This document shows positions 1-7,980 of a DNA stretch of 33,390 nt, piece by piece. The position numbers and the translations under genes were made by a program. The notes under the pieces were generated by a model. It saw nothing but the letters and a program-made list of their open reading frames with translations, was not told the DNA's origin and searched no databases. Origin of the DNA: Acaryochloris sp. CRU_2_0 (lineage in GTDB: Bacteria; Cyanobacteriota; Cyanobacteriia; Thermosynechococcales; Thermosynechococcaceae); contig JAAUOM010000042.1 of NCBI GenBank assembly GCA_012034865.1, positions 1-33,390 of the forward strand. Reading direction: 5' to 3'. Position 1 is the stretch's first letter, and every line of letters starts with the position of its first letter.

Positions 1-286
1 GAAAATTATACAAGTTCCTCAAACAGTCTATCCCAGGCTTCGAGGACGAGGCGTTGGGTGTGTTACGCAGTAACGGCAGTTTTTGGGGTTCTATGGGGTG
101 GTGATGGAGCGTCATTAGCTGGGAAGACTTTAGGGTTTCTATGGCATAGGCTTTGCCGCTGGTGTCGCTGAATTCTACTTCAAAAACACCGGGTTCGTAT
201 TCTTCGACGATCGTGCCAACATTGCCTCGATAGAGTCCTAATTCTGGGAGGTCTTGTAAGAGAGCGACAATATCTAATAGTTTCAT
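1..286 (-). CDS. DUF4926 family small protein, open at the window edge
   Basis: The minus-strand frame starts with ATG at 286-284, preceded by AAGGATGG as ribosome binding site. The product begins MKLLDIVALLQDLPELGLYR and continues with GTIVEEYEPGVFEVEFSD, the usual pattern of DUF4926, a family of about 70 residues. Family similarity ends near residue 65. The frame then runs without a stop through the 32-bp repeat and off the window, so the native stop was probably lost at the insertion junction. DUF4926 genes are often paired with DUF6883 genes, as here (17 bp apart). The pair looks toxin-antitoxin-like, but this is inference and no biochemical role can be read from the sequence. Confidence 0.75.
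   Translation of the reverse strand, partial: MKLLDIVALLQDLPELGLYRGNVGTIVEEYEPGVFEVEFSDTSGKAYAIETLKSSQLMTLHHHPIEPQKLPLLRNTPNASSSKPGIDCLRNLYNF
6..59 (-). pseudogene. orphan duplicate of the methyltransferase 3' end
   Basis: Read on the minus strand in the methyltransferase frame, this segment gives TQRLVLEAWDRLFEELV followed by TAA at 8-6. The first ten residues equal the end of the large methyltransferase gene that stops at 648. That gene then ends DTLGF, while this copy continues DRLFEELV. I infer this is the original C-terminus, separated from its gene by insertion of the DUF6883/DUF4926 cassette. Confidence 0.75.
29..60. repeat. 32-bp direct repeat, copy A
   Basis: This is a perfect copy of bases 662-693, beginning TATCCCAGGCTTCGAGG. 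The flanking bases differ on both sides (C versus G before, T versus C after), so the identity is exactly 32 bp. The two copies bound the DUF6883/DUF4926 pair and coincide with the end of the methyltransferase coding sequence. Confidence 0.95.
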
Positions 287-302
287 TATTTTCCATCCTT
301 TT

Positions 303-635
303 CTAGAGAACATAGCAGGTTACTAAACGGGGAAACTCCTCATCAAATCTGACTATCCAAACACTATGAACGATGGCTGTTTTATTTTGATAGGTCATGG
401 GAAAGTCAATGATATATTTCTAACCGTATTGATTGCTTTTGCCTGGGACTGCATCATGGCTTTCTACCGCTTGAATCGGAGTACTCTTGAGTTCTTCTAG
501 GTTATCAACGGTGATGTTTAGGGCTGACTTGAAGACACGGGCTTTATGTTGCCCATCATCGTGATTGAAGTTAAGGCAGTAGCCTGCCAATTTATTGGTG
601 TCAATGTAGGCTCTCTGGGGATTGGGCAGCTTCAT
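303..635 (-). pseudogene. DUF6883 family protein with an in-frame amber stop
   Basis: The gene starts at ATG 635 (MKLPNPQRAYIDTNKLAGYC) and contains GQHKARVFKSALNITVDN, typical of the DUF6883 family. After NQYG there is a TAG at 422-420. The same frame then continues KYIIDFPMTYQNKTAIVHSV and ends RLVTCYVL at the TAG at 305-303. The total of 110 codons matches the usual length of the family. One base change (CAG or AAG to TAG) explains the break. The gene precedes DUF4926 on the same strand, probably as a two-gene operon. The function is unknown to me. The first 71 residues alone could be made, but they lack the conserved C-terminal half. Confidence 0.8.
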
Positions 636-661
636 TGAGATGCCTCTCTAAAAACCTAGTG

Positions 662-693
662 TATCCCAGGCTTCGAGGACGAGGCGTTGGGTG
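662..693. repeat. 32-bp direct repeat, copy B
   Basis: This is the second copy of the repeat at 29-60, lying inside the last codons of the large methyltransferase gene. Recombination between the copies would remove about 633 bp and restore the ending DRLFEELV to the methyltransferase. Confidence 0.95.
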
Positions 694-3030
694 CGGTATT
701 CGCCGAATTGTTTCATTTCATTATTTTTGAGGACTCGGAAGGTTTCGCTGGGGAAGTCGGGGCCATAAATGTCGGCGGGGTCGAGGATGTAGCGGAGTTC
801 GTCGCGGGTGAGGCCGTAGAGGTGGGCGTAGTAGGCATCGAGTTCGGCACGAAGCAGGGCACGGCGTTCTGGGTTCCAGATGAAGGGTTCGCCGTCGTAG
901 CCCATGTCTTGGGCGAAGGGTTGCATGTCCCAGGCGGTGTAGGTGAGTTCGAGGACGCGAGGGGCGATGAAGTCGATGTCGGTTTGGCTGTAGAATTCTG
1001 GAGCCAGAACGGGGAGTTGTCTCAATACTGTAAAAGTTATGTGAGTTCCACCCAATTTCTGTCTTGTGATGAAGTCGAATATCAAAGAGTTGACGTTTCC
1101 TAAAAAGCAGTTGAATGCATTTTGATAGTTTGCCTCAAAGTGTATGAGTGGTGCAGTGTGCCCAACTCCCACACGAGGCAAAATGCTGAAAATAGCTGTC
1201 CGCTCGTCGGTTGAACGACAAATATCGCGGAAGGCAATGAGCCAATTCTTTTTCCACTTATGGGCGAGACGATTTTCGACCTCCGATCGCCCAACCCAAT
1301 AGCGCGGCACGGGCAGGCAGTTGGGGTCTTGCTTTTCGGCATCGGTCATATCGCGGGTGGAGCCATCGACGGTGTAGGTGGCCCAGCGATGGTCAAACTG
1401 ATGCAGCATCTTAGCTTCGTACAGCGGGACAGATCCCTCACTCGGTTCGGTGGCAAATAAGCCGCTGTCGTTGGACATGTGGAACATTGCAGAAAAGGAA
1501 ATTCCCCAAGGATTTTGTCCGGTGCGATCGTTTTCTAGGACGGGGACGCGCTGATAAATCTTTTGGGTCAGTTCAGCGTCAAAACGGGTGCGGAAAATGG
1601 GACAGGTTAAGGTGTTGGGGTTGATGAGGGCAATATTGTCAGGGGTAAGGTGAAACACCCGCGCTAGATTCTCAAGATACCGAACCTGGGTGGCAAAAAA
1701 GGAAAATTTTGATTTTTGAACTTGGCTGCCGCTAATACAGAGCAATGAAAACTTATAGCTGCGATGAACGGATGAAAAGAGCGCATCTCGGTTCTCAAAG
1801 TCATAGAGACTGGCGATCGCTCTTTTTGAATCAAATCTCCAAAAAACTTCTTGCAGGTGTCGTCAGTCGCGATCCCAGTCGGGACAATAATCCCAGCTCT
1901 GCCAACAGCACTGACAACATTGCGAACGGTTTCGGAAAACACAGCATAAGTGTTAATGTCTCCGGTCGCTGTAAGCAGAAAGCGATTAGACTCTCGAATA
2001 AATTTACCCTGAGCATCGGCATCATGCTTTGCTGTTTCCCATTCTGCGGCTAAGTTAGGGTCATTGGTCTTCAATTGCCAGATTAACGCTTCCCTTGCCG
2101 CCTTGTTAGCTGCACTAGCAATTTCTACATTTCTTGCGGCAAAAAATTCTTTTTCTTGTAGTTTGATCCGTTCCCACGGGGGATTCCCCAACACACAATC
2201 AAACCCACCCAGCCCAAATACCTCTGGGAACTCTAATGGCCAATGGAAAAATTGCTTTTCATCAGCCAGTCGATCTGCTGCATTCACAACCGCCTGCGTC
2301 GCCCAGTTTCCTTTTAGCAAATTCTCTAACACCCCCGAAGTCGGCAAAAGCTGTAAATGCTGCTCCGTCAACGGCATAAAAAACGCCGCCGTCCAAAGAT
2401 TACAGGCCGAACGATCTCGCAACCACGACTTCAAATGCCGACCGTGCTCATACTTCGCCTGCTTTTGTCGCACCGCTGCCGGGTCATCATCTTTCATCCC
2501 CTCAATCTCGCGCCATGCCTTCGCATATTCCTCGCGGTCTTCAAACGTTGACTCCAGCTCCAGGGAAAGTTGCCCTCGCTCGATATCCTTCAGAGCTTTT
2601 TTGTTCGACTTCTTCATCTGGGATGCAATGGCTTTATCATCCCCCGTCACCGCTGTATAAGCCCCATCAGGAATGCCTTCCTTCAAACAATCCAGATCCA
2701 ACACTCCCACCAACGAGTTACCACACTTGATCCGATGATCCAGAAAATTGAGCGATAGCCCCCGACATAACCCCTCCAGCCACAACGCCACCTTACAAAG
2801 GTCAACCGCCAACGGGTTCAAATCCACCCCATAAATACAGTGCTGAATTACATCCCGAATCGCCTGCCGCAACGGTTCCGACCCCGGTTGCGCCTCCCCT
2901 GTCCGCACCCGCGCCAATTCTTTGCCAATTCGTCGGGCTGCTGCCAGCAAAAAATGACCCGACCCGCAAGCCGGATCGCATATTTTGAGGGAGAGGAGGG
3001 CGGCTTCTTGGCGTTGTTGCAGGGAAAGTG

Positions 3031-3070
3031 GGGGATCGGGAGTGGGGAATCGGGAGTGGGAAGTCGGGAG
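3031..3070. repeat. G-rich heptad repeat arm, right of the S23 gene in transcription order
   Basis: The plus strand shows degenerate tandem copies of GGGAGTN/GGGAATC. The opposite flank at 3441-3486 carries the reverse complement of the same heptads. The S23 gene thus sits between imperfect inverted repeats that could pair in the transcript. Confidence 0.8.
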
Positions 3071-3075
3071 GTTGT

Positions 3076-3435
3076 TTATTGTTTGTTCTGCATTGCTCGG
3101 ATCAATGATCTCAGCATCTTGCCCACTGTCTGGCATTGTTGCAGCAGCGGTGAGGAGTTGGTGCTGGTCACCAGACTTACCCTGGTTGCCAGCAACAGAT
3201 GGGTTTCTAGTTCCTTCAGAGATCCCTGAGCGATCTTCAGAAATCGGATGTACTCCCCCCTGTTCTCTCGACCGTAACCTTCGGCGATGTTCGCTGGAAC
3301 CGATACTGCTGCCCTGCGGACTTGAGAGGTCATCCCGTACATCTCCTCCTTCGGAAACTCCTTCGTGACCTGGTAACACCTCTCCGCTAGCGTCATCGCC
3401 TCCTGCCAAACCCTCAGATCCTGATAAGATTCCAT
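3076..3435 (-). CDS. S23/IVP-type four-helix bundle protein nested in the methyltransferase gene
   Basis: From ATG 3435 the frame encodes MESYQDLRVWQEAM, then SQVRRAAVSVPANIAEGYGR and FLKIAQGSLKELETHLLLA, the hallmark of the 'four helix bundle' (S23, TIGR02436-like) family. At about 119 residues it is complete. The frame is also open upstream to 3477, but that extension only translates the flanking repeat, so 3435 is preferred. Homologues are known from intervening sequences inserted in bacterial 23S rRNA genes. Here the gene lies on the same strand as, but out of frame with, the methyltransferase, between its YYTP and DPACGSG motifs. The host frame stays open across it. Whether it is translated is unknown. 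Confidence 0.8.
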   Translation of the reverse strand: MESYQDLRVWQEAMTLAERCYQVTKEFPKEEMYGMTSQVRRAAVSVPANIAEGYGRENRGEYIRFLKIAQGSLKELETHLLLATRVSLVTSTNSSPLLQQCQTVGKMLRSLIRAMQNKQ

Positions 3436-3440
3436 CGCCA

Positions 3441-3486
3441 ACTCCCTGGCTCCCAACTCTCGACTCCCGACTCCCAATCTCCCGAA
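3441..3486. repeat. C-rich heptad repeat arm, left of the S23 gene in transcription order
   Basis: The plus strand reads CTCCC-type heptads (CTCGACTCCCGACTCCCAAT), the inverse of the arm at 3031-3070. The methyltransferase frame translates this arm as GSRESRVGSQ. Confidence 0.8.
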
Positions 3487-4123
3487 ACTCTTCCTCCGCC
3501 TCCCTCAACTTCTCCTCAATCACAGGCTCCAACGCACTTTTGATCAACTGCCCCACCAACTCCGGCGGCGTGTAATAGGAACCCGTCGTCTTGCGATCGC
3601 TCCCCGTCACCAACTGAAATTCCCAAATCCCCTCCCGCTGAACCACCTTGGGATGGAACTCCAGCAAACTCTCATAAACACTACCCAGCTCCTCAACATC
3701 CAACGCCCCATAATTCACCCGGCGTAATTGGCTCTTCTGCTCATAGAGCGACAACTGTCGCAAAGCCAACGTCAAATCATGATTATCGATCGCACAACCA
3801 TCCAAAATACCCAACGTAGAAGACCCAAACAAATCCCCATCCAATGGCGATAGCCCCAACAACTGACCGCGCCAATTTTCATCAAAAAGCTGAAACGTCA
3901 CCCGTAAACCCTGCCACAGATCTTGAAACCCTTCCCGCCTCCAACCACCATCTCGCTCCACTAGGGCACGTAACCGCTCAATACTGTAGTACTCCCGATA
4001 AATCCGCACCTTCTCCGGATCATCCGTAGAGAGCAGCAGATTGCGCGATTCCGCCACCATCAAAAATAACAGCCGATAGATCAGCATTAAGAGCTGCCTG
4101 TAATAGGCTTCCGGCGTAAGTGT

Positions 4124-4210
4124 TCCCTCACCCCCAGCCCCTCTCCCTGAGGGCGAGGGGAGAGTCTTGTCCCCCTTCTCCCTAGGGGAGAAGGGGTTAG
4201 GGAATGAGGG
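4124..4210. repeat. G/C-rich palindromic repeat inside the methyltransferase gene
   Basis: The stretch contains CCCTCACCCCCAGCCCCTC, then a palindromic core CCCTTCTCCC-TA-GGGGAGAAGGG. This resembles dispersed repeats seen in many cyanobacterial genomes. It is read in frame as a Pro/Gly/Ser-rich loop (SPREKGDKTLPSPSGRGAGG, residues 309-328). Its length keeps the frame. Confidence 0.7.
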
Positions 4211-4683
4211 CATCAATTTATCTCGAAGCCCCTGACTCTGGGGATGCTGCAAAAATCCCGTCCCCAAAATCTTTAGGGCAGATTCCACCCCGTCCCGCAG
4301 GCGATCGCGAACCCGTCCCCCTTGCTGCAAAGACTCCTGATGATAAAACTCCAGCAAACATTCGTCACAATCCTCCATCCCTTGAGGCAAGCGGGAGCGA
4401 TGAAACAGCCGATAGAACAGGCCAAACTCAGCAAAGTTTTCCCCCTCAAGAATCTGCTCCAAATCAAACTCGACATAGGTCAACCGCGTCATCAACGTCG
4501 AGTCCCGTAGTAACCGCCAACGCCGACCATTCGTCACCACCGACCAAAGATGCTCAGTCCGGTTCAGATACTCCTGCACCAGAGCATGGGCAGAGAGCCG
4601 GGGTGTTCCACTCGGAGGCCGCTGCTCTAACCGAACACGACACCCAATAATATGAATGGGTGGTTGTTTATAAATTTCGTTGA

Positions 4684-4767
4684 GATCGGGAGTCGAGAGT
4701 GGGGAGTCGGCAGTCGTCTTCCCCGATTCCCTACTCCCTATTCCCCATTCCCCTCTCCCCGCCCGAT
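4684..4767. repeat. heptad hairpin repeat inside the methyltransferase gene, no ORF in the loop
   Basis: The left arm is ATCGGGAGTCGAGAGTGGGG and the right arm carries the inverse CCGATTCCCTACTCCC. The same heptads flank the S23 gene at 3031-3486. It is read in frame as RGEWGIGSRESGKTTADSPL, residues 120-139. It looks like an empty form of the element that carries S23. Confidence 0.7.
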
Positions 4768-5109
4768 GGGAAATTGCATAAGTCTGCTCCTCCACAACCT
4801 CAGCTTTAGCCACATAAACAGGGTCATACCCTAAACTCCGCAGAAACGGTACCACCCACTGTTCTCGCGTCACGGTCGTTGCTGGGTCGTTTTCCGGCAG
4901 TCGGGATAAGGCTCTTTGGAATGCAGCCCAATAGGCTTTGGCATCGCCCCATGCGATCGCAATTTCATCCGCTAACTTGTCAGACTTGGCAAGGCCAAAA
5001 TCTTCTGGAGATTGTCCTTTGACCGCTCCAGTCAAGAGTTCTGTCGTCAAATCGGGCGCAATCAGATTGCCCTGGATATCAACCCCAATCGGCATATCGA
5101 CTGTCGTTT

Positions 5110-7980
5110 TCATTCTGCTGACCTCCGTTGACCGGGCTGAAGCACAAATAAACCCAGCACATCCATGGGCAACTGAGGCTTTACCCGCACCTGTCCCTCC
5201 TTCGTTAGATTGCGAACTCGTCGGTGGGATTGCGCCAACGATTGACCCCGTGCTTGGGCGATCGCCTCTAGCTCCTTCTCAAGGCTACCCAGACTGTCGA
5301 TCAGTTCTTCAATTTCCATCCGCTTTAAGGCAGGGGCAATATCCCCTACAGGTTCTGCCTTCTGAAGTAAATGCTGGGACTCGTCCGGTTCAAGCCAGAG
5401 TGGATTTGAGGGAGGGCCGGTAAAACCAGCCACAAAACATTCCTCAGCCAACAATGTCTCCACTCGCGGACTGCTCAGGAGATAACGCGACCTGAGCAAC
5501 AAAAGGGTTGTACGTTTCTCTACGGCATCAGTAATGGTAAAACCGCAACGAGCTGCGATGGTCTCTGACCGGCCATCGGCCATCGGGTTATGGAGATTCT
5601 CAAGCGTCTCCTCCAAAAGATAATGAGCCAAGCCCTCCACCAGCGAATGATTTCGCCCCACATACTCCACCCCTTCCGGTGCTGGTGTCGTAAAGGTGAT
5701 GGTTCGAGGTTGTGTCCCCAGACTGTTTTGCAGCGGTAACGGAATAGACGGCAGTAACCAACCCAGTTTTTTCTTTTGCAAAGAGGTGTTCAATCGACTG
5801 CACGCCGCCTTCACAAAGCGCTCTACATCGGCTTCGCTGCCTAGGATTTGATCCGACTCCACCAGCTCTTGCTCAACTTCATCGGGTTTAATCGCCCGTT
5901 GAGCAAATCGAGTCCGACTGACTTTTTCCCGCTCCACTGCGCGATCCCAATTCTGATGAACCCGATCGACCGCCGATTCCTCGTTATCCAGCAAATCCAA
6001 GAGCGAAAGTTGTTCAGCATCGGCTTTCCGGTCAAACAGCGACTTAAACACAGCCTCTGAAACCGTGGCGCTGTCCATGGGTACAGGCACTGTAATCCCC
6101 AAAGTCTTGTGAATTTCCACAGCTTTCCGAATCAAAACTTCTAAAACGGCACCATCAACCGGATTATCTTGCCCATAGAGCAAATAGCTTTTGACTAATG
6201 GTGCGGTTTGGCCATAGCGGTCAATTCTGCCCTCCCGTTGCTCTAACCGATTGGGATTCCAAGGCAGATCGTAATGAATCACCGCATTGAAGCACTCTTG
6301 CAGGTTTACCCCTTCACTGAGACAGTCCGTTGCCACTAAAATTCGCGCTGGATAGGTCGTCAATTCCTCCAAACGCACTTCTCGCTCATCCTCAGATAAC
6401 TCGCCTGTAATGGGAATGACTCGAATTTTGTTCCCCCGCTTTTTCTCAAATTTGCTTCGCAGTTCTTCCGCCACATAGTTGGCCGTTGCAATATAGCGAC
6501 ACCAGACGATTGGATTAAAACCTGCGTTGAGTAAGCCCTCAATGGTGGCGATCGCGGCCTGAAGTTTGACATCCTTTGCACCTTTAAGCTTAACCGCCGC
6601 CTGGATAAACCCTCGCAGTTTACGGCGATCGGAATCCTTATAGGTCTGTTGCCCTTGCTCAATGGCGATCGTGGGTTGAGCATCAATGGCCTGTTCTTGG
6701 TCTGTGGGATCGTAGGTGTAAGCCACCATCAAATCTTCATCAATCTCGATGGACGACTCCGTCTCAACATCAGTCTTAGTGACCTGCTTGCTGAGCGTTG
6801 CAATGGCAGCTTCAGGAGAAGACATCACACAACGAATCAAACCTAACGCAGCCCAATAACGTCCGCGCCGCTGAGCATGACTCATATCCTGAGTGGTGGT
6901 TTGAACCAGACCACGGGCAAAATTATAGACCTGCTCGAACAAATCTCGATAATCCTTAGACAGCTTATAAGGCTGTTCTTGCGGGTCACGTTCTGGGAAA
7001 GGGGTCTCATTCCCTAGCCATCGCTTCACATCAGCCCGTCGCCGCTGCACAAAGTGATTGGCCAGCTCAATTCGCTGCTCTTGACTCAGATGATTGATGT
7101 CCCAAGCCTCAAACCTGCGATCGAGCAAGCCAAGAATAGACAGAAATGACGCTTCAATTCCACTGTGGGGGGTCGCGCTCAGCAAAATAAGATGCTGAGT
7201 GTCTTTCTGGGCAATCTCCTGAATGAGTTGATGCCGCTGCTGTTGAGAAACGCTACGTCCTCCTGGTCGGGCACAGGTATGGGCTTCATCCACAATAACT
7301 AGGTCTGGGCAATGGGTCAGGAAGCTTGCTCGTCGGCGATCGGACTTAGCATAATCCAGACTGACGATGATATGGCGATAGTAACCAAAGACATGATGAT
7401 TGCCGCCGGTCAGACCTCGCTCTAATTTAGTAACCGTTCCAGAACGAATCACCACCGCATCAATATGAAATTTCTCCCGTAGCTCACGCTGCCACTGATC
7501 GCAGAGATGCGGTGGGCACAGCACGGCTAACCGCTTCACTTCGCCGCGATCCAGCATTTCCCGTGCGGTGAGGCCAGCTTCAATTGTCTTGCCAATCCCC
7601 ACATCGTCTGCAATGAGGAGGCGTATAGTCTCTAACCGTAGCGCCATCAGTAGCGGAACAACCTGGTAAGGCCGGGGGCGCACCGATAACCGACCTAACG
7701 ACCGAAATGGGCCAGCTCCACTCCGAAGGCTCAGTCGGGCCGCATCCATCAGAAGCTGAGCCGCCGTGTGATCTTGGACTGCTTCTGGCCGGGGCGCTGG
7801 AAATTGAGCCGATGCAATTGGCTCTAATTCAAGGGGCTGGTAAATGCCGCAAACTTGATCCTCGTTCCCACTAAGCGGACGCAGCCGAATGACCTCAGAA
7901 TTTTCTGAGGGTAATACAACCCATTGGCGATTACGACAGGTAACGACAGCACCAGGGGTGGGAAGAAAACTATTTGCCAT
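5110..7980 (-). CDS. SNF2-type helicase, DrmD-like
   Basis: This 956-residue protein is a superfamily 2 DNA helicase/translocase. Motif I is DDVGIGKT (about 125-132), motif II DEAH (231-234) and motif III SATPH (268-272). The second RecA lobe has VATDCLSEGVNLQ and QREGRIDRYGQ. The N-terminal part (RPRPYQVVPLLMALR) is the Q-motif region. The layout fits DrmD, the SNF2-like helicase of class 1 DISARM, whose partner DrmMI would be the methyltransferase just downstream. The stop overlaps the methyltransferase start as ATGA, so both are made from one transcript. The frame is intact and all core motifs are present. Other two-gene helicase/methyltransferase defence systems are possible, since drmA, drmB and drmC are not in the window. 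Confidence 0.82.
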   Translation of the reverse strand: MANSFLPTPGAVVTCRNRQWVVLPSENSEVIRLRPLSGNEDQVCGIYQPLELEPIASAQFPAPRPEAVQDHTAAQLLMDAARLSLRSGAGPFRSLGRLSVRPRPYQVVPLLMALRLETIRLLIADDVGIGKTIEAGLTAREMLDRGEVKRLAVLCPPHLCDQWQRELREKFHIDAVVIRSGTVTKLERGLTGGNHHVFGYYRHIIVSLDYAKSDRRRASFLTHCPDLVIVDEAHTCARPGGRSVSQQQRHQLIQEIAQKDTQHLILLSATPHSGIEASFLSILGLLDRRFEAWDINHLSQEQRIELANHFVQRRRADVKRWLGNETPFPERDPQEQPYKLSKDYRDLFEQVYNFARGLVQTTTQDMSHAQRRGRYWAALGLIRCVMSSPEAAIATLSKQVTKTDVETESSIEIDEDLMVAYTYDPTDQEQAIDAQPTIAIEQGQQTYKDSDRRKLRGFIQAAVKLKGAKDVKLQAAIATIEGLLNAGFNPIVWCRYIATANYVAEELRSKFEKKRGNKIRVIPITGELSEDEREVRLEELTTYPARILVATDCLSEGVNLQECFNAVIHYDLPWNPNRLEQREGRIDRYGQTAPLVKSYLLYGQDNPVDGAVLEVLIRKAVEIHKTLGITVPVPMDSATVSEAVFKSLFDRKADAEQLSLLDLLDNEESAVDRVHQNWDRAVEREKVSRTRFAQRAIKPDEVEQELVESDQILGSEADVERFVKAACSRLNTSLQKKKLGWLLPSIPLPLQNSLGTQPRTITFTTPAPEGVEYVGRNHSLVEGLAHYLLEETLENLHNPMADGRSETIAARCGFTITDAVEKRTTLLLLRSRYLLSSPRVETLLAEECFVAGFTGPPSNPLWLEPDESQHLLQKAEPVGDIAPALKRMEIEELIDSLGSLEKELEAIAQARGQSLAQSHRRVRNLTKEGQVRVKPQLPMDVLGLFVLQPGQRRSAE

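Follow-up and report, generated by a model that had tools for sequence, protein, structure and literature searches.

How small toxin-antitoxin-like units that carry no mobility gene move from place to place is, to our knowledge, an open question, and one end of the cyanobacterial contig presented here raises it in compact form. The window (the whole stretch of DNA analysed, positions 1-33390, 33,390 nt) is the entire contig G000:C110 of a 259-contig assembly, and near its start a pair of small genes lies between two copies of the tail of a DNA methyltransferase gene. Did the pair enter the 3' end of that gene, copying the tail as it did so, or did the second tail come to lie beside the pair in some other way?

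A two-gene unit between two copies of a gene tail

The 32-bp perfect direct repeat occupies positions 29-60 and 662-693, at a spacing of 633, and can be stretched to 36 bp with one mismatch (25-60 and 658-693); at up to two mismatches the 32-bp sequence occurs twice in the window and in 0 of 100 shuffles. Its sequence is that of the 3' end of a DrmMI/type IIG-like methyltransferase gene, and its two copies bracket a DUF6883-DUF4926 pair, exactly as the original prediction had it. On the minus strand the order is a SNF2-like helicase, the upstream partner (5110-7980; best PADLOC matches DpdE and DrmD), the target gene, an N6-adenine methyltransferase (648-5113; Eco57I/N6_Mtase by family, DrmMI and type IIG by PADLOC), and then DUF6883 and DUF4926. 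The inner repeat copy (662-693) lies within the methyltransferase reading frame and reads ..TQRLVLEAWDTLGF-stop, the gene ending DTLGF with its stop at 648-650; the outer copy (29-60) reads ..TQRLVLEAWDRLFEELV-stop, the methyltransferase frame running on to DRLFEELV and a stop at 6-8. Both ends are thus read as they had been described. The unit between the repeats measures 601 bp (61-661, minus strand) and consists of a leader, the DUF6883 gene (303-635, minus strand; Pfam match within 420-635, E 1.5e-13) and the DUF4926 gene (61-286, minus strand; Pfam match within 2-286, E 6.6e-26), with no other family found. In particular, Pfam detects no recombinase, integrase or transposase in the unit, and its ends bear no inverted repeats of at least 14 nt.

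It had been proposed that precise excision could restore the native gene and that the element may switch reversibly. Switching is unsupported, because all three genes, the methyltransferase included, are damaged, and none of the lesions was part of the original prediction: DUF6883 is a pseudogene by an in-frame TAG at 420-422, DUF4926 lacks one base near its 3' end relative to its homologue in genome G188, and the methyltransferase changes frame somewhere in 1724-1853, where its reading frames overlap. Excision alone would thus give no intact methyltransferase frame. The statement that DUF4926 runs into the outer repeat without a stop of its own holds for the present frame, in which the stop is absent because of the one-base deletion; the aligned TAA nevertheless survives out of frame at 63-65, 2 nt before the repeat. 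Unless the three lesions are sequencing errors, the locus looks like one in decay rather than a live switch.

Only 28 bp separate the outer copy from the contig end and, the window being a whole contig of so divided an assembly, the assembler could have joined an outer tail to DUF4926 at that end. We consider such an artefact improbable: the terminal 70 bases have no match to other contigs better than E 1, the outer copy has a plausible methyltransferase end of its own, unlike that of the inner copy, and the same architecture lies inside long contigs of two other genomes, G368 and G241. No empty site was found for the window's own locus, the 28 bp beyond the outer copy being too little for comparison with a pair-free relative. 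Because a window that ends there cannot decide whether an insertion took place, other copies of DUF6883 were collected.

Flanking repeats, empty sites and a replacement at other loci

Of 388 genomes sampled from the class, 213 have a copy of DUF6883 (E up to 0.001), and DUF4926 follows within 250 nt in 171 of 174 DUF6883 matches (167 loci, before removal of duplicates). Among 161 distinct pairs, 151 had enough flank for a repeat test, the window pair being excluded for its short right flank. The prediction had called for a search for direct repeats around other copies of the pair, and these flank 34 of the 151, compared with 9 of 132 control ORFs (one-sided Fisher p = 1.6e-4) and with 26 of 1104 pseudo-positions in the same loci (one-sided Fisher p = 8e-18, the pseudo-positions overlapping and hence not independent); in 117 of the 151 pairs a flanking repeat was undetected. 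Exact repeats of at least 12 nt occur at 11 of 156 pairs, the fraction in mispaired flanks being 0.000. A flanking repeat is nothing unusual in itself: in other bacteria, 10 to 18% of small variable segments have direct repeats on either side, for the most part shorter than 30 bp, according to the accessible part of one survey (PMC2884548). Many of the 34 repeats are intergenic and contain the word GCGATCGC, and some resemble each other across genomes. Repeats borne by the element itself were considered and rejected, all cross-matches among the 34 involving intergenic GCGATCGC-type repeats except for those between two near-identical loci of genome G138. In only five of the 34 rows does the repeat extend over the stop codon of a long upstream ORF (more than 450 aa): L197, with an N6_Mtase gene that we label hsdM; L193, with a HlyD-family gene; L251, with a gene of AIRS domains that we take to be purL; and L218 and L124, two almost identical hsdM loci from a single genome.

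The window's own genome holds further copies of these genes. A second pair on the minus strand of G000:C189 (L183) lies between direct repeats of 103 nt that are 92% identical, the first 144 nt before it and the second 124 nt after it; a third DUF6883, at G000:C112:157-480 (minus strand), contains an in-frame TAA. One scan of viral contigs with the G188 DUF6883 as query, which reaches close relatives only, found no relative of the pair.

Two of the flanked loci have before-and-after counterparts. The G368 pair stands between the two copies of an 83-bp duplicated sequence, which comprises the end of the HlyD-family gene and the first codons of the next gene, presumably hetP-like. At the same site, 8 of 9 same-genus relatives (G411, G412, G413, G414, G416, G417, G418 and G419) have a single copy of 83-84 bp and no insert, the exception, G415, being a genome of 73% completeness. 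At the right joint of the G368 insertion, 28 nt nearly repeat (96%) a sequence that lies some 1.3 kb further downstream, consistent with what template switching would leave. Near the empty site of G416, at a different place, lies a 5'-truncated piece of the G368 cassette (G416:C277:2955-3218, in L358; 98% over 264 nt), and the identity of this piece, set against flanks that are 81-90% identical between the two genomes, points to recent movement. A 20-nt word behind the G368 DUF4926 was tried as a recombination site and set aside: its 18-nt core occurs in 5 of 369 loci, which represent three genomic places, and the whole word occurs in 0 viral contigs. In G241 the pair begins 3 nt after the stop of the presumed purL, and a 29-bp copy of the end of that gene starts 2 nt after the DUF4926 stop; G177 provides the empty site, the joined flanks being matched over 234 nt at 88% with 0 gaps, and G388 has the pair. 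The reading of the repeats as an insertion footprint that copied a gene tail thus finds its counterpart in duplications and empty sites of the same pair elsewhere, and an insertion with target duplication is most likely for the window as well, whose copy would have arisen like those of G368 and G241.

At two other loci the outcome takes a different form. G188 has the pair behind a methyltransferase of the same family as the window's, with no outer tail; comparison with G248 (L143) reveals that about 581 nt containing the pair replaces about 402 nt containing what we take to be xisH, with flanks 96% identical and the presumed xisI still following. In G183 the tail of hsdM is duplicated over 128 bp at 93%; no clean single empty site was found for it, the two flanks being matched on different contigs, and we regard it as probably an insertion with a 128-bp duplication. 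Insertions of the pair are therefore accompanied by duplication of 29 bp (G241) or 83 bp (G368), or by loss of about 402 bp (G188). Illegitimate insertion is favoured by the variable duplication lengths (29, 32, 83 and 128 bp), the one deletion and the unit's freedom from a recombinase, and the variable lengths argue against one fixed transposase stagger.

A cassette moved in trans by an unknown site-specific recombinase that uses gene 3' ends, in the manner of island or integron integrases, would account for the several targets that are gene 3' ends and for a right repeat that begins no more than 31 nt from the DUF4926 stop in 18 of the 34 flanked pairs. It is nonetheless very unlikely in our view, as the unit brings no recombinase, the repeats of the coding cases range from 29 to 128 bp with no common site in their sequences, and the G188 event is a replacement rather than an insertion. 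The upstream neighbours are also diverse: a same-strand ORF of at least 100 aa lies nearby in 72 of 156 pairs, with 124 Pfam families matched, the commonest being COR-A/COR-B (8 members) and N6_Mtase (4).

Methyltransferase ends and tail copies

The methyltransferase nearest to the window's by tree path (L028) ends DRLFGKA and has no pair behind it, and the best DNA match (G048, 90% over 331 bp) ends DQLFGSS; both resemble the window's outer end, DRLFEELV, more than its inner end, DTLGF. The inner end had been regarded as aberrant. This stands in so far as no pair-free homologue ends exactly DTLGF, and falls in so far as LGF-type ends are native: L006, L048, L064 and L071, all pair-free, end QLGF, KLGF, RLGF or RMGF. 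The named methyltransferase loci contain neither DUF6883 nor DUF4926. By eye, the window's inner end and leader resemble LGF-type methyltransferase ends such as that of L064; an inner end of LGF type and an outer end of DRLF type would fit, though they do not prove, a donor tail-plus-pair that recombined into a resident DRLF-type gene. In the methyltransferase tree, whose bootstrap had not settled and in which three LGY-ended rows fill under half of the columns, the window groups with L028, and G188 falls into another clade with L142, L143, L145, L146 and L177. The pair is thus found behind this methyltransferase family in a second clade. The first four of these relatives share the LGY end of G188, and all five are without the pair in the available downstream DNA. 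One could suppose that the inner junction is ancestral, given the same gene order in G188; we rejected this since the G188 methyltransferase belongs to the other clade and has LGY-ended, pair-free relatives.

Tail copies also occur behind methyltransferases of the family at loci with other cargo. Of the 95 methyltransferase loci with 500 nt or more of downstream sequence, six (L064, L065, L066, L085, L091 and L172) have a clean downstream copy, in each case a short 3' tail of 58-203 nt; inclusion of L042 and L044, dropped for repeats of 17-18 nt, would make it 8 of 95. L082, with 33-nt tail repeats, has 200 nt downstream only and stands outside this count. We had considered that methyltransferase tails are duplicated more often than those of other genes and abandoned the idea, the excess over neighbouring ORFs being insignificant (3 of 100 clean, p = 0.22; 5 of 100 including the dropped L049 and L177, p = 0.25); upstream copies of control 5' ends occur in 1 of 96. 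Downstream matches to the body of the methyltransferase gene (e.g., L030, L048, L070 and L086, among the matches listed) are presumed to be interspersed repeats.

The cargo is varied. L064 (3595-6300; Halomicronema sp. CCY15110) has Septu PtuA/PtuB, bounded by the end of the methyltransferase on one side and by two degenerate tail copies on the other, along with a fragment that we presume to be XisH; L066 has a 56-aa ORF, L085 an AHJR-like nuclease gene and L172 (G332) an AAA_15 gene. L065, from Longilinea, outside the cyanobacterial phylum, has two genes and two further tails, and in L091 the tail copy stands amid palindromic repeats with no cargo gene. Arrays form behind hsdM too: in G183 the order is hsdM, DUF6883-DUF4926, a tail (45 aa, 87%), ParD-ParE-nucleotidyltransferase and a second tail (17 aa, 82%), and one contig of G138 (C5, near 10061 and near 64126) bears two near-identical loci of hsdM, DUF6883-DUF4926, tail copy, second gene and tail copy. 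We raise, tentatively, an integrase-free cassette economy in cyanobacteria, in which toxin-antitoxin-like and defence units might be accreted behind genes, notably those for DNA methyltransferases, each leaving a tail copy so that arrays build up; the tails might then allow RecA-driven loss or shuffling and rewrite the methyltransferase C-terminus.

Several smaller observations concern the same stretches. Short repeats inside the methyltransferase genes of L042, L045, L049 and L058 recur just downstream (NYELRIT in L042, KIPDFSPNYS in L058). In L031, L047 and L050 a gene of 260-264 aa behind the methyltransferase is followed by incomplete copies of its 3' portion; the one scanned, that of L031, matches DUF2887. 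In the window's genome, G000:C74:899-973 (L179) is an orphan, frameshifted tail of the window's methyltransferase family that ends DRLLEKLN, with no methyltransferase in front of it in the stretch read. In G335:C88 (L170, about 1850-2234) an orphan methyltransferase tail comes after what by eye is a fragment of the partner helicase, and the whole looks like a decayed system.

Orphan tails of the family, such as the one behind the helicase-like fragment in G335, bring up another origin for the window's outer copy, namely that an LGF-ended methyltransferase, DUF6883 and DUF4926 are the resident order and the outer tail is what is left of a second, decayed methyltransferase. The native LGF-type ends of several homologues agree with this, as does G188, where methyltransferase, DUF6883 and DUF4926 stand in line with no outer tail. 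We nevertheless hold it to be unlikely: the six clean downstream copies are short 3' tails, the window's outer copy begins 2 nt past the aligned DUF4926 stop, and G188 lies in the other methyltransferase clade, among relatives without the pair.

A proposed route and its relation to known systems

Insertion remains our preferred reading. We think it probable that the pair is a compact, mobility-gene-free unit that was inserted at the methyltransferase 3' end by illegitimate recombination, with a long target duplication. The left side would most likely be held by homology, supplied by a donor methyltransferase tail or by the tail itself, and the right side would be joined without homology just upstream of the point from which the left side departs, leaving the last part of the gene present twice. 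A right joint downstream of that point would instead lose resident DNA, as in G188, where the pair replaces the presumed xisH. The insertion itself could be either homology-facilitated or a template switch. Such units may persist by behaving like toxin-antitoxin or defence modules and through transcription driven by the preceding gene.

Insertion with long, variable target duplication is reportedly treated by Nobusato et al. 2000 and Furuta et al. 2010. The loci described here resemble that process in having a transposase-free unit, long and variable direct copies of the target (of the order of 100 bp in that process; here 32 bp in the window, 29 bp in G241, 83 bp in G368 and 128 bp in G183) and a relative with one copy, which exists for G368 (8 of 9 relatives) and G241 (G177), none having been found for G183. 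They differ in that restriction-modification genes are inserted there, as in Helicobacter pylori, whereas here DUF6883-DUF4926 is inserted in cyanobacteria and the methyltransferase is the target. The available portions of the published accounts place the process among restriction-modification genes (PMC3874152, PMC3031569, PMC1643837; see also PMC4978471). The suggestion of an undescribed cassette type must therefore be narrowed: the process is known, and the novelty, within the literature searched, lies in the DUF6883-DUF4926 cargo, in the before-and-after comparisons and in the connection with methyltransferase tails. Full-text searches returned no mention of DUF6883, one of DUF4926, and no work joining target duplications, toxin-antitoxin and cyanobacteria; the one paper that touches on insertion, direct repeats and target site duplication alongside toxin-antitoxin and cyanobacteria apparently concerns archaeal elements.

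Integrative elements that target gene 3' ends bring a substitute tail with them, and the old end is left on the far side with direct repeats flanking the element. The new gene end, the old end beyond the insert and the direct repeats are shared with the window, whose unit differs in measuring 601 bp without an integrase, and in that repeat length and sequence differ among the sites compared. Integron gene cassettes are likewise small, comprise one or two genes, stand behind another gene and may be lined up in arrays, separated by repeats; here, by contrast, the repeats, where readable, are the tails of upstream genes, and the unit is again without an integrase. Insertion sequences and transposons differ as well, the unit having neither inverted repeats of at least 14 nt nor a transposase, and its duplications of 29-128 bp no fixed short length. 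A mechanistic parallel comes from the available part of a study of type VI secretion (T6SS) effector/immunity arrays and Rhs loci, which models displaced 3' ends by homology-facilitated illegitimate recombination (PMC5361080): one end is anchored in a conserved gene, the opposite end is joined without homology and the former 3' end comes to lie further downstream, whereas in our loci it is a methyltransferase or housekeeping-gene tail that is displaced, with the target copy kept as a duplication.

A role for the pair is suggested by its arrangement. Two small co-oriented genes kept together, DUF4926 following DUF6883 with the constancy seen in the census, recall type II toxin-antitoxin systems, and we regard a toxin-antitoxin-like role as putative. 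Neither protein matched a named toxin or antitoxin family, and PADLOC gave no match for the pair; solved-structure matches were judged to be chance for both proteins (best E 0.0087, to surface proteins, for DUF6883 and 0.39 for DUF4926).

The cyanobacterial phylum includes transformable laboratory strains. In a single two-gene family, an empty site, a duplicated target and a replaced neighbour are found as before-and-after pairs, making the route by which such units move measurable. The same loci suggest that defence-like genes can accrete at the tails of DNA-methyltransferase genes.
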